Positions 521 through 32,403 of a stretch of 32,479 bases of DNA are shown here, piece after piece. The stretch's first letter is position 1. Each line of letters opens with the position of its first letter. Position numbers and translations under genes: made by a program. The notes below the pieces were generated by a model that was given only the letters and a program-made list of their open reading frames with translations, did not search any database and had not been told where the DNA came from. The DNA lies in NCBI GenBank assembly GCA_947631115.1, contig CANRKB010000016.1:1-32479 (forward strand), given 5' to 3'. Source of the stretch: an uncultured Clostridia bacterium. Lineage in GTDB: Bacteria; Bacillota; Clostridia; Oscillospirales; Ruminococcaceae.

Positions 521-562
521 GCGGAACGAAATTTCTTTCCCGCTCAAAGGTTTTTTCACACT

Positions 563-812
563 TAAGGTTGTTCTCCGTTTAAAACATCTTTGTAAGATTG
601 AGATTTTCAAAATAATGATTTTGAAAATCTCAATGTGGGGAAAACTCTTGTTTTCCCCACACCCTTTAGCGCCTTTGGAAGCGTTATTGAGGGAAAACTT
701 TTTTGAAAAAAAGTTTTCCCTCAAACTCCCTTTCAAAAAACTTTCGTGCCGCCGCCTGAAATGCGGTTTTGATGTTAAACGATGTTCGCCGCTCGAAACA
801 AATTCTAGTCTC
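563..812 (+). repeat. Family A multi-hairpin repeat, copy A1
   Basis: This is a block of about 250 bp with three perfect hairpins. Hairpin a is 597-613 with 618-634 (17 bp, loop AATG). Hairpin b is TGTGGGGAAAAC (634-645) with GTTTTCCCCACA (650-661). Hairpin c is 687-702 with 709-724 (16 bp). A conserved tail follows, containing TTTCAAAAAACTTTCGTGCC and GTTCGCCGCTC. The same order occurs at 10156 and 27626. Hairpin a has a different sequence here but keeps its pairing. Short open frames across it read through the hairpins and are not credible genes. Strand is arbitrary. Confidence 0.8.
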
Positions 813-4008: not shown

Positions 4009-4242
4009 GCAGTGTACAGTGTACGCATTGAACGCCTCGCGTGCAACGCTGGGTACAGTATTCAGTAGAATGTGTCTGCTGACGCAGACATTATTAGATT
4101 GTTATCGGACTGAAGCGTTTTGGAGCACAACCGTAAAAGGTTTTCTCGTGTGCTTATTGTTCAAAAACAATCTAATATTATCCGCCGCAAGGCGGATACC
4201 ATAACTGAATACTTTACCCTGTACACTGTAAACTGTCAATGC
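4009..4242. repeat. Family B palindromic repeat, copy B2
   Basis: This is the longest family B copy and fills the gap between the capsid and connector genes. The left end CAGTGTACAGTGTACGCATT mirrors the right end ending CACTGTAAACTGTCAATGCG. Nested arms are TGTCTGC (4073-4079)/GCAGACA (4084-4090), ATTAGATTGTT (4093-4103)/AACAATCTAAT (4166-4176), a central AGCACA/TGTGCT with AACC/GGTT, and TATCCGCC (4179-4186)/GGCGGATA (4191-4198). Short open frames over it are artefacts. It ends about 20 nt before the next gene's ribosome binding site. Confidence 0.75.
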
Positions 4243-9992: not shown

Positions 9993-10127
9993 CAGTTCAT
10001 AGTGCACAGTGTACGCATTATGCGCTTCGCGCAAAACGCTGTGGACAGTGGACAGTGTACAGTTGTGGTGTCCGCTTCGCGGACAGATTTAAATTGTTTT
10101 AAGTCAATAGGCACACGAGCCGTTTTA
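9993..10127. repeat. Family B repeat, left half only (B3)
   Basis: CACAGTGTACGCATT and GTGGACAGTGTACAG begin the unit. It continues with GTCCGC/GCGGAC (TTC-type loop), AAATTGTTTTAAGTCAATAGGCACACGAG-like inner sequence, and then stops. The expected mirror half is missing, and family A copy A2 starts about 30 nt later. So A2 either inserted into B3 or the two were joined by recombination. No gene is present between 9968 and 10472. Confidence 0.6.
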
Positions 10128-10155
10128 TATTACGCACAAAGACAAATGAATTTTT

Positions 10156-10451
10156 AAGGGAGTTCCCCGCTCAATACCTCTTTGTAGGATTGCCGTTTCA
10201 AATGCTTGCATTTGAAACGGCAATGCGGGGAAAACTCTTGTTTTCCCCGCACCCTTTAGCGCTTTTTTAGCGTTATTGAGGGAAAACTTTTTTGAAAAAA
10301 AGTTTTCCCTCAAGCTCCCTTTCAAAAAACTTTTGTGCCGCCGCCTGAGAGGTGGTTTTGATGTTAAACATTGTTCGCCGCTCAGAACAGGTTCTTGCCT
10401 GTAGTTTCCAATCTCTTTCAAAAAACTTTCGTGCCGCGCCTTGCGGCGCGG
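10156..10451 (+). repeat. Family A multi-hairpin repeat, copy A2, with extra tail
   Basis: Hairpin a is 10189-10205 with 10208-10224 (17 bp). Hairpin b is 10224-10235 with 10240-10251. Hairpin c is 10276-10291 with 10298-10313. The conserved tail with TTTCAAAAAACTTTTGTGCC and GTTCGCCGCTC follows. A second tail fragment (CTTTCAAAAAACTTTCGTGCC, split by design here at 10416-10436) then leads into CCGCGCC (10434-10440)/GGCGCGG (10445-10451). The GC-rich hairpin ends 21 nt before the phoH start, so the repeat forms the phoH leader. I see no clear promoter for the phoH operon outside the repeat. Confidence 0.8.
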
Positions 10452-19672: not shown

Positions 19673-19787
19673 AAATCTAAGCGCGATAATTTGACAAGAT
19701 AAAAAATTGACAAAATTTGACAATAAACGCCGTCCGACTGTTCGGGATATAATTTGTCCGCGAATATCGGGCTATAATTATCATATT

Positions 19788-19915
19788 CAGACTGTATATA
19801 AAGCCCCATCTGCGGCGTCAGCGTCACTGCAACAGCCACAAAGGCTAGTTGCAGTAACGCTTCCTAGCATCTGGGACTTTCTATACAGTCTGAAGTCGGA
19901 TTTTTATACAAGCTG
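19788..19915. mobile_element. 128-bp MITE-like element with 11-bp target duplication
   Basis: The direct repeat ATTATCATATT occurs at 19777-19787 and again at 19916-19926, exactly bordering this segment. The left end CAGACTGTATATAAA and the inverted right end CAGCTTGTATAAAAA match at 12 of the first 15 positions, so the segment has terminal inverted repeats just inside a target-site duplication. Inside, TTCAGACTGTATA (19786-19798) pairs perfectly with TATACAGTCTGAA (19882-19894), and GCGTCACTGCAAC (19821-19833)/GTTGCAGTAACGC (19848-19860) with AGCC/GGCT make a long imperfect hairpin. There is no room for a transposase. The TSD length recalls IS4-type elements. It lies in the leader of the downstream gene. 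Confidence 0.75.
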
Positions 19916-20011
19916 ATTATCATATTTTGGTTAGTTTACATATAAAGTAATTACGGGCTGTCTGAAAAGCCCGAAGATATTGACCTATTTATTTTGGAGA
20001 GTGATTTCACC

Positions 20012-26737: not shown

Positions 26738-26925
26738 TACGTGTTGGCAGTATACTGTACACTCTACACTGTCAACTGTCAACAGGGGTTCGGGGGCGGC
26801 AGCCCCCGAGGCGGGTCGCAGGGCGCGCCAGCGCCCCGAATCTCCCCCTTCCCCTCCGGGGAAGGGGGCAGGGGGTTAGGGCGAGATAACGTTATTAAGA
26901 GAAACAACTTTTGAAAAGGACAACA
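26738..26925. repeat. Composite B-end/D repeat (copy 2) with G-rich hairpins
   Basis: The family B end CTACACTGTCAACTGTCAAC is followed by the hairpin TCGGGGGC (26790-26797)/GCCCCCGA (26802-26809). Then comes CCCCCTTCCCC (26844-26854)/GGGGAAGGGGG (26858-26868), continuing to two more G runs ending at 26881, a G-quadruplex motif. The order and flanks match 372-520. Nothing coding is seen between the pcrA stop and the XRE gene. Confidence 0.65.
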
Positions 26926-26944
26926 AATAGGCATTATACAAAAT

Positions 26945-27557: not shown

Positions 27558-27625
27558 ATTTGTGCTATAGATTGACAAGAAGCCGAAAGGAACTAACATT
27601 CACGCTCTACTGTTCATTCATTTTC

Positions 27626-27889
27626 AAGGTTGTTTTCCGTTCAAACCCTCTTTTAGGATTGCCGTTTCAAATGCTTGCATTTGAAACGGCAATGCGGGGA
27701 AAACTCTTGTTTTCCCCGCACCCCGGGTTCAATGCCGTAGGCATTTAACCCGATGCGCTAAGAATCGTTATTGAGGGAAAACTTTTTTGAAAAAAGTTTT
27801 CCCTCAAGCTCCCTTTCAAAAAACTTTCGTGCGCCGCCCGCCAGGTGGTTTGAACGGAAAAGCGCTTCGCCGCTCGGAACAGTTTCTAG
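27626..27889 (+). repeat. Family A multi-hairpin repeat, copy A3
   Basis: Hairpin a (27658-27674/27677-27693) is identical to A2. Hairpin b is 27693-27704/27709-27720, hairpin c is 27771-27786/27792-27807. A fourth hairpin unique to this copy, CGGGTT (27724-27729)/AACCCG (27747-27752) with AATGCC/GGCATT, is inserted between b and c. The tail ends TTTCTAG next to the coaX stop codon. With the small RNA upstream it fills the 27269-27890 gap; no protein gene is supported there. Confidence 0.8.
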
Positions 27890-27890
27890 C

Positions 27891-28664
27891 TCACTTGTTC
27901 TTCTTATATATTGCCAGCAATCCTTTGAAAATCAGCTCGTCGTCGAGTATGAAGTCCGCCTTGCAGAGCGGTTTTATCACGCTTGAAAAGCCGCCTGTTG
28001 CGACTACGGTGCATTTCTCCCCAAGCTCCTTTTCAAAGCTCTCGACCATTCCGTCTATCATAAACGCGTTTCCGTAGAGCAATCCCGACCGCATACAATC
28101 CCCCGTGTTCTTCCCGATAACGTGAGGTCTCGGCTCGCTTGAAACGCCTATCAGCGGCAGAGCGGCGGTCTTGTCCGCGAGCGCCTCTGCGGAGATCTTT
28201 ACCCCCGGCGCTATTATTCCTCCGACAAACGCCCCGCTCTTGTCAATGGCAAGAACTTTCGTAGCCGTTCCCATATCGATAACTATCGCAGGCAGCGGGT
28301 AGTTTTCCTTTGCACCAACCGCGACCGCCGCCAAGTCCGCGCCGAGCGACGCAGGCTCGTCGATTTTTATGTTAAGCCCCGTCTTTAATCCCGGTCCTAC
28401 TGTCAGCACCTTACACCCGCATATCTTTTCAACAGCGGGCTTTATCTGCACCGTAACCGGCGGCACTACCGACGACAGCGCCGCGCCCGAAATTTCCTCT
28501 GCTTTTATCCCGTAAAGCCTCAGAATATCCGCTAAAAGTATGGCGTATTCGTCCTCCATTCGCAAACGGTCGGTCGCTATCCTCGACTGAAACTTCGGCT
28601 CGTCGTTTTCGTCAAATCCGCAGAAAACAATGTTTGTGTTTCCAACGTCAATTGTAAGTATCAT
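27891..28664 (-). CDS. coaX: Type III pantothenate kinase (CoaX)
   Basis: A 257-residue protein starting at ATG 28664 after GAGGTAAC. ASKHA-fold motifs are in order: DVGNTN (6-11), SSVVPP, GADLAAVAVGA, DMGTATK (about 130), GGIIAPGV, TAALP and ATGG near the C-terminus. CoaX phosphorylates pantothenate with ATP in the first step of coenzyme A synthesis, needs a monovalent cation, and is not inhibited by CoA. Family A repeat copy A3 abuts its stop codon. Monocistronic here with its own promoter. Confidence 0.95.
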   Translation of the reverse strand: MILTIDVGNTNIVFCGFDENDEPKFQSRIATDRLRMEDEYAILLADILRLYGIKAEEISGAALSSVVPPVTVQIKPAVEKICGCKVLTVGPGLKTGLNIKIDEPASLGADLAAVAVGAKENYPLPAIVIDMGTATKVLAIDKSGAFVGGIIAPGVKISAEALADKTAALPLIGVSSEPRPHVIGKNTGDCMRSGLLYGNAFMIDGMVESFEKELGEKCTVVATGGFSSVIKPLCKADFILDDELIFKGLLAIYKKNK

Positions 28665-32275: not shown

Positions 32276-32403
32276 TCTAGAGGCTAGACGTTAGAGGCAA
32301 AAGGCAAGAGGCTTAGAGGCTAGAAGCTGTTTTGAGCGGCGAACAACGTTTTATTTCCAAAACACCAAATGAGCGGCGCACGAAAGTTTTTTGAGGAAGA
32401 GAC
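32276..32403 (-). repeat. Family C repeats and inverted partial family A copy (A4)
   Basis: TTCTAGAGGCTAGA and AGAGGCTTAGAGGCTAGA units run from 32276 to 32325. They are followed by GAGCGGCGAACAACGTTTT and GGCGCACGAAAGTTTTTTGAG, the reverse complement of the family A tail (compare 735-812 and 10412-10436). The order is the exact inverse of the end of A1, where the family A tail is followed by TTCTAGTCTCTTGCCTC. The hairpins of family A are missing; an insertion-sequence end begins about 10 nt later. Confidence 0.6.

Follow-up and report, generated by a model that had tools for sequence, protein, structure and literature searches.

Family A, a modular, hairpin-rich interspersed repeat in an uncultured Clostridia genome and its relatives, is probably a non-autonomous mobile DNA element

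The repeat that we call family A is probably a non-autonomous, modular, hairpin-rich interspersed mobile DNA element, and on our best reading it appears closest in kind to the BOX elements of pneumococci. It is a mostly intergenic unit of about 300 letters with several near-perfect hairpins, judged to be non-coding, and its dispersed copies are polymorphic between close relatives, as those of a classical MITE would be. The matched changes in its hairpin arms look more like the outcome of copying at the DNA level than like proof of a functional RNA. The window analysed, 32,479 nucleotides long, is the whole of contig C16 of its genome (G000; 2.06 Mb in 60 contigs), and the genomes compared are draft MAGs.

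Three copies, A1, A2 and A3, had been reported in the window by an initial annotation, at 563-812, 10156-10398 and 27626-27889, and all three lie where it placed them. It located the core correctly but left out the left modules, which start about 25 bases upstream of 563 and can be 150 bases or more in extent. The order H1, H2, H3 that it described is present in each copy, but an extra hairpin in A3, M1, had not been separated. The parts of the three copies are as follows.

534..596, + strand: A1 left module (TTTCCCGCTCAAAGG ... CCGTTTAAAACATC)
597..634, + strand: A1 H1, 17-bp stem, ATTGAGATTTTC type
635..660, + strand: A1 H2, whose inner 20 bases (638-657) have 90 exact occurrences in the genome
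687..724, + strand: A1 H3, TTGAGGGAAAAC form
725..812, + strand: A1 right module (CTCCCTTTCAAAAAACTTTCGTGC ... CCGCTCGAAAC) and TCTAG-type tail
10130..10188, + strand: A2 left module, joined to part of a family C intergenic repeat
10189..10224, + strand: A2 H1, ATTGCCGTTTCAAATG type
10225..10250, + strand: A2 H2
10276..10313, + strand: A2 H3
10314..10410, + strand: A2 right module and tail
27598..27657, + strand: A3 left module
27658..27693, + strand: A3 H1
27694..27719, + strand: A3 H2
27724..27752, + strand: A3 optional hairpin M1 (CGGGTTCAATGCC GTA GGCATTTAACCCG), with one C.T mismatch
27771..27807, + strand: A3 H3
27808..27890, + strand: A3 right module, abutting the stop codon of the minus-strand ORF 27891-28664

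The H1 arm is ATTGAGATTTTCAAAAT in A1 and ATTGCCGTTTCAAATG in A2 and A3, with every change matched in the opposite arm. The earlier figure of 8 differences in 17 arm positions is correct for an ungapped comparison; with gaps, the stem is 17 bp in A1 and 16 bp in A2 and A3, so that part of the difference is a single paired indel. The swap in the outer pairs of H2, T-A in A1 and C-G in A2 and A3, had been read correctly.

An alignment of 30 copies gives the general order as left module, H1, H2, optional hairpins, H3, right module and a TCTAGCC-type tail. The left module is marked by TTCCCGCTCAAAGG... and ...CCGCTCAAAACATC, and some copies carry alternative left modules. The loop of H2 is fixed. 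After H2 comes ACCC, with small variants, and then one of three continuations: TTTAGCGC or TTTAACGC in 49 of the 90 copies, the M1 hairpin in 31 and GTTGGCAGTTGACAG in 8 (the remaining 2 are cut or unclassed). Further GC-rich hairpins lie between this part and H3, which has two main forms. The right module (CTCCCTTTCAAAAAACTTTCGTGC...) has CCGCTC at its end and is followed by a TCTAGCCTCTAG-like tail. No terminal inverted repeats of the kind that mark a classical MITE were seen by eye in the alignment; direct CCGCTC words stand at the ends instead, and the ends of family A are blurred by adjoining repeat families. Some copies form tandem arrays with a period near 219, and arrays share one junction, ACCC to GTTGGCAG, at 8 of 90 places. 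Divergent pairs also occur, eight of them 313-364 bases apart and one 464. Near the contig end, at 32314-32394 of the window, lies a right module of family A in reverse orientation, and several MAG contigs end within family A or its neighbours.

The existence of further copies in the genome had been set as a test beforehand, and they were found. The 20-base core of H2 occurs in G000 at 90 places exactly and at 3 with two mismatches (none with one), and a reversed control pattern gave 0 matches. BLASTN with A2 gave 105 matches in the same genome, a number that counts in overlapping and palindromic ones. With about 90 dispersed copies, a single conserved RNA gene was rejected. At no more than one mismatch, 20 of the 43 genus genomes contain the core and the other 23 do not. 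The four closest genomes hold 97 (G005), 92 (G009), 90 (G000) and 71 (G002); G065, G001 and G011 hold 51, 47 and 40, and 13 others of the genus hold fewer. A covariance model built from 29 copies has matches in 27 of the 43 genomes, but its counts are inflated because the palindromic parts also match the opposite strand of the same elements, and we therefore used counts of the H2 pattern instead. In diverged species of the genus H1 is often unrelated in sequence, yet most of the copies shown still have a long hairpin there, and most retain the H2 core with its CCCTTTAGCGC-like tail (one locus, L064, is a weak and atypical match).

Among 394 genomes sampled from the order, 3 contained the core (again with at most one mismatch), all of that same genus, and no genome outside the genus did. 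Exact matching against 84,980 species genomes found at least 93 stretches with the core; among the matches listed (80 loci), the titles are those of uncultured Clostridia, Oscillospiraceae or Ruminococcus MAGs, many of them marked Lapin. The exact core was found in 0 IMG/VR contigs, and blastn with A2 found nothing among 50,697 phage and 72,556 plasmid records, which rejects, or at least weakens, a phage or plasmid origin.

The arms of H1 pair far better than other stretches of the same copies. The stem score at the H1 anchor has a median of 16 (lowest 2), against a median of 3, a 95th percentile of 6 and a maximum of 15.5 at 611 control anchors. In a 29-copy alignment 98.9% of cells pair, and 15 of 41 pairs are changed on both sides, with 70 double-changed cells against 4 single-sided ones, all 4 in H3. 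None of 500 shuffles reached the observed values for pairing and double change, and 4 of 500 did so for a fifth measure, further pair types, although related sequences can exceed such shuffles even without structure. When the alignment was slid by 1-3 columns, only 1-6 pairs were doubly changed, compared with 15 in register. The initial annotation was right that arm changes are compensated, as most of them are in the further copies too, and the many copies with covarying pairs that it had named as support were found, with significant covariation. Neither of the outcomes that it had named as refuting was seen.

It had also taken conserved pairing with changed sequence as the signature of a selected structure, and here we disagree: such pairing is not by itself that signature, given the kinds of pair that H1 contains. 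Across 168 copies H1 has 2,662 Watson-Crick pairs, 0 G-U, 2 A-C and 12 others (2,676 pairs); the stem finder favours the greatest number of Watson-Crick pairs and cuts back stem ends, so that every non-Watson-Crick count, that of G-U among them, comes out too low. The 87 copies of G000 contribute 1405 Watson-Crick, 0 G-U, 1 A-C and 4 other pairs from 18 arm sequences (2 of the 90 copies had too little sequence on the left and 1 has no H1). The 81 copies from other genomes contribute 1257, 0, 1 and 8 from 34 arm sequences, after 15 of 96 without a stem of score 9 were left out. H3 in 80 copies of G000 has 1503 Watson-Crick, 2 G-U, 10 A-C and 10 other pairs, that is, 22 non-Watson-Crick in 1,525. 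Stepwise evolution of an RNA would be expected to go by way of G-U intermediates, which arm-to-arm copying or swaps of whole hairpins would bypass. Covariation was found, but wobble intermediates are absent from H1 and rare elsewhere (2 G-U in H3 and 1 in M1), and the pattern of family A is not that of a slowly evolving RNA.

Three further observations weaken the signature claim: chimeric arms, loops found both ways round, and the exchange of modules between orthologous copies. Only four H1s in G000 are mismatched; two of these (C24:7207 and C39:151) are chimeras of two known arm types across the loop, and the other two each contain one odd base. In 6 arm classes the same arms enclose a loop in either orientation: CAAG, for example, stands in 5 copies and CTTG in 5, and ACG in 28 and CGT in 2, although with 3-base loops some such pairs are expected. 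Most of the A-C pairs belong to one chimera type of H3. In M1 the C.T mismatch is retained in 25 of 30 copies, which indicates that arm copying does not correct every hairpin; four other M1 copies are perfectly paired, one way or the other. The H1 pattern and the module swaps could be explained by copying, both between arms and from copy to copy, without selection on an RNA. Selection for the folded shape of family A is compatible with the data as well.

Comparison of orthologous loci shows family A present in some close species and absent in others. At the A2 locus it is present in G000, G005 and G009; G002 has a family C repeat there and no family A, and G006 has a 37-base spacer. At the A3 locus a copy stands at the same place in G000, G002 and G009 with different inner modules, while in G005 the two halves of the locus lie at the ends of two contigs; beside the gene that adjoins A3, no copy was seen in G006 or G001. 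The copy at C13:42475, upstream of a tgt-like gene in G000, is absent there in G002 and G009. A few copies (A1, A3) are common in position to close species. In the loci compared from G005, G009 and G002, both flanks could be tested for 33 copies, and 16 of these lack, on either side, a match to any stretch around a family A copy in G000 (7 of 12 in G005, 6 of 12 in G009 and 3 of 9 in G002); with copies that have a single testable flank included, the numbers are 13 of 21, 12 of 25 and 6 of 14.

Another such site lies between a tgt-like and a HAD-like gene, names that are our own reading of these genes. The pair overlaps in five relatives (G009, G033, G012, G006 and G022), and composites with two family A copies separate it, with 964 bases between the same points in G000 and 1,185 in G005; in G002 the insertion is seen on two contigs. 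AAAGGTG or AAAAGGAG precedes the start codon. In these three genomes ATGA stands on both sides of the site; this may hint at a target duplication, but ATGA overlaps the start codon, which may simply have been kept. In G065 the two genes are close together with no element between them, and in G031 and G001 another gene lies downstream of the tgt-like gene. None of the seven outgroup loci compared here contains an exact H2 core. Clean insertion edges are unreadable at A1, A3 and L140 because modules there are heavily reshuffled.

Whole hairpin modules are exchanged between orthologous family A copies. At the C6 locus, G002 and G000 share H1 and the near flanks, and M1, immediately behind ACACCC, is present in G002 only. 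H3 has been exchanged at C1:78141, together with the hairpin that precedes it. The M1 position at C8 that is mismatched (C.T) in G005 is a C-G pair in G000.

The position of copies relative to genes is uneven at one end only. The right end faces the 3' end of a gene in 48 of 70 cases and a gene start in 22 (two-sided binomial p 0.0025), whereas the left end faces a 3' end in 30 of 55, with no bias. These counts use ORFs of at least 130 codons, none overlapping elements, and leave out 14 of the 90 copies, which have no gene nearby, and 6 more that are inner members of arrays; they replace an earlier count that included spurious ORFs within elements (39 of 62, p 0.056). The stop codon often lies within or adjoins the TCTAG tail. 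The bias could reflect an insertion preference, tolerance or a role in 3'-UTRs, and we would regard any influence on nearby genes, for instance through hairpins in 3'-UTRs or newly created ribosome-binding sites, as secondary. Automatically called ORFs overlap 21 of the 90 copies and were judged spurious by length and position. By eye, no run of T follows H1, H2 or H3 on either strand in A1-A3, which rejects, or at least weakens, intrinsic terminators as a candidate.

Of the three options that the initial annotation offered, a structured RNA, a mobile element or an extended REP-like unit, the presence and absence of copies between close species fits the mobile element best. For a selected RNA, copies in 3'-UTRs would be transcribed, and their stacked hairpins would block exonucleases or attenuate transcription and so select for pairing. 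The strong covariation, the 3' bias of the right end beside an unbiased left end, and the retention of the H2 core in several diverged species of the genus all speak for such a role, and so does the excess of A-C over G-U among the odd pairs of H1, H3 and M1 in G000 (12 against 3), A-C being G-U on the opposite strand. Yet most of those A-C pairs trace to the one H3 chimera type, H1 is free of G-U, many positions are unshared between close species, modules are swapped between orthologous copies, and nearly a third of right ends face gene starts. Rfam adds nothing in its favour: the window has 0 matches at the gathering score, in line with the earlier remark that the repeat fits no nameable family, and the best weak match, of A2 to NsiR9, has an E of 0.0028 and 24.7 bits against a threshold of 90. 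We consider a selected RNA unlikely.

Two more specific forms of mobility seem less likely again. Were H2 an attC-like single-strand hairpin, site-specific recombination could swap cassettes at the ACCC after it. That idea accommodates the three continuations behind the same ACCC-type sequence, the tandem period of about 219 with its one junction, the clean exchange of M1 at the ACCC point, and an orientation of the H2 loop relative to the ACCC tail that is constant in 90 copies; but exchanges also occur elsewhere, in the left module and H3, as ordinary gene conversion would give, and we think it improbable. A REP/BIME-type repeat moved by a RAYT (Y1, HUH) transposase would share the high copy number, the palindromes, the divergent pairs and the direct tandems of family A. 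However, its palindrome is 20-40 bp long, compared with a unit of about 300 bp with several hairpins here, and no PF01797 protein was found in G000, G002, G005 or G009, the copy-rich genomes nearest the window, although a Y1 gene could be missed because these are draft MAGs. Such proteins are present in 9 of the 43 genus genomes, G065 and G006 among them. The strict REP/RAYT case is very improbable, and RAYT is an unlikely mobiliser of family A.

How might the mobile element that we favour spread? In G000, 90 of 93 H2 cores share one sequence, whereas pairwise identity has a mean of only 53% in the left segment (90 copies) and 74% in the right (61 copies), which makes H2 the natural recognition site. 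It would likely be recognised by a trans-acting recombinase or transposase, probably when folded out of single-stranded DNA; its constancy could alternatively be due to host selection. DNA-level copying may keep the arms of H1 and H3 matched: template switching would act between the arms of a hairpin and gene conversion from one copy to another, perhaps with some help from selection for the ability to fold during transfer. Next to an H2 core that hardly varies, H1 varies freely in sequence yet is almost perfectly Watson-Crick. It is possible, and we offer this only as a tentative extension, that H2 is recognised by sequence and H1 by shape alone, and that the repeat is exchanged as single-strand hairpin cassettes at a fixed point after H2. 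If that were true, standard tests would read the covariation as a conserved RNA where none exists.

Among known systems, the BOX elements of Streptococcus pneumoniae and S. suis offer the nearest parallel. The BOX study reports 125 elements made of 422 modules in one genome, with variable module number, predicted stem-loops and clusters with other repeats; about half of the insertions were common to all strains compared, the elements are thought to be parasitic, and a candidate mobilising IS was proposed (PMC3049150). Family A is likewise modular, hairpin-rich and partly shared in position, and its optional M1 and other hairpins, two H3 forms, alternative left modules and tandem arrays are modularity of the BOX type. 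The likeness is one of kind, so we do not claim BOX membership; family A differs in pairing a near-invariant H2 with a sequence-free, almost perfectly paired H1. REP sequences are described as high-copy extragenic palindromes that alternate in orientation in BIMEs (PMC2817692, PMC3116915). Compared with REPs, BIMEs and REPINs, family A is a longer, multi-hairpin unit, and the four copy-rich genomes nearest the window have no Y1 protein. In mitochondrial DNA, double-hairpin elements and similar palindromic repeats are mobile, and their stems change in sequence without losing their pairing. The stems of family A vary in the same way, but those elements belong to organelle genomes, and we know of no invariant neighbouring hairpin in them. 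In a yeast study, template switching is reported to equalise the arms of inverted repeats and to invert their spacers (PMC8604942). The H1 pattern fits such homogenisation, but this is a mutation process and not a family of elements.

In the literature searched, which most subscription journals lay outside, nothing but papers on MITEs came up for comparable repeats in Ruminococcaceae, Ruminococcus, Faecalibacterium and Clostridia. As far as the literature searched goes, constant and sequence-free hairpins side by side, with covariation almost without wobble, are new. If our reading is right, RNA discovery calls for caution: through arm copying and module exchange, a mobile palindrome present in many copies can produce highly significant covariation without selection on RNA. 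Missing wobble pairs together with inverted loops would then be a simple test to tell a mobile palindrome from a selected RNA. The same reading would point to an enzyme of gut Clostridia by which hairpin cassettes are spread and overlapping genes can be split.

Several other repeats share the window with family A. Family D (19785-19917) is about 130 bp long with 28-bp inverted ends (TTCAGACTGTA...); a copy lies beside the C8 family A copy in G000, and in G005 that copy is not there and one is found elsewhere nearby. Family D is a MITE-like element with insertion polymorphism. Family C (4010-4239, 2826-2894 and 10001-10120) is an intergenic repeat with ACAGTGTACAGTGTA ends, has many matches in close species and is fused to family A at A2. 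Family B (399-514 and 26752-26941) consists of a CCCCTTCCCC...GGGGAAGGGGG hairpin and AACGTTATT...AACAAC; it too has many matches in close species, and it is among the sequences that alternate as left neighbour of family A. Elsewhere, at L021, L175 and L177, two divergent family A copies enclose a central module that carries a terminator-like hairpin (AAAAGGCGCATTTCC...GGAGTGCGCCTTTTT). A derivative junction, GCGGGGAAAACCCCT(A/G)CTAGAGGT, joins a shortened H2 to an inverted right end and is the same at two loci in two species, L031 at about 1350-1420 (G002) and L034 (G009).
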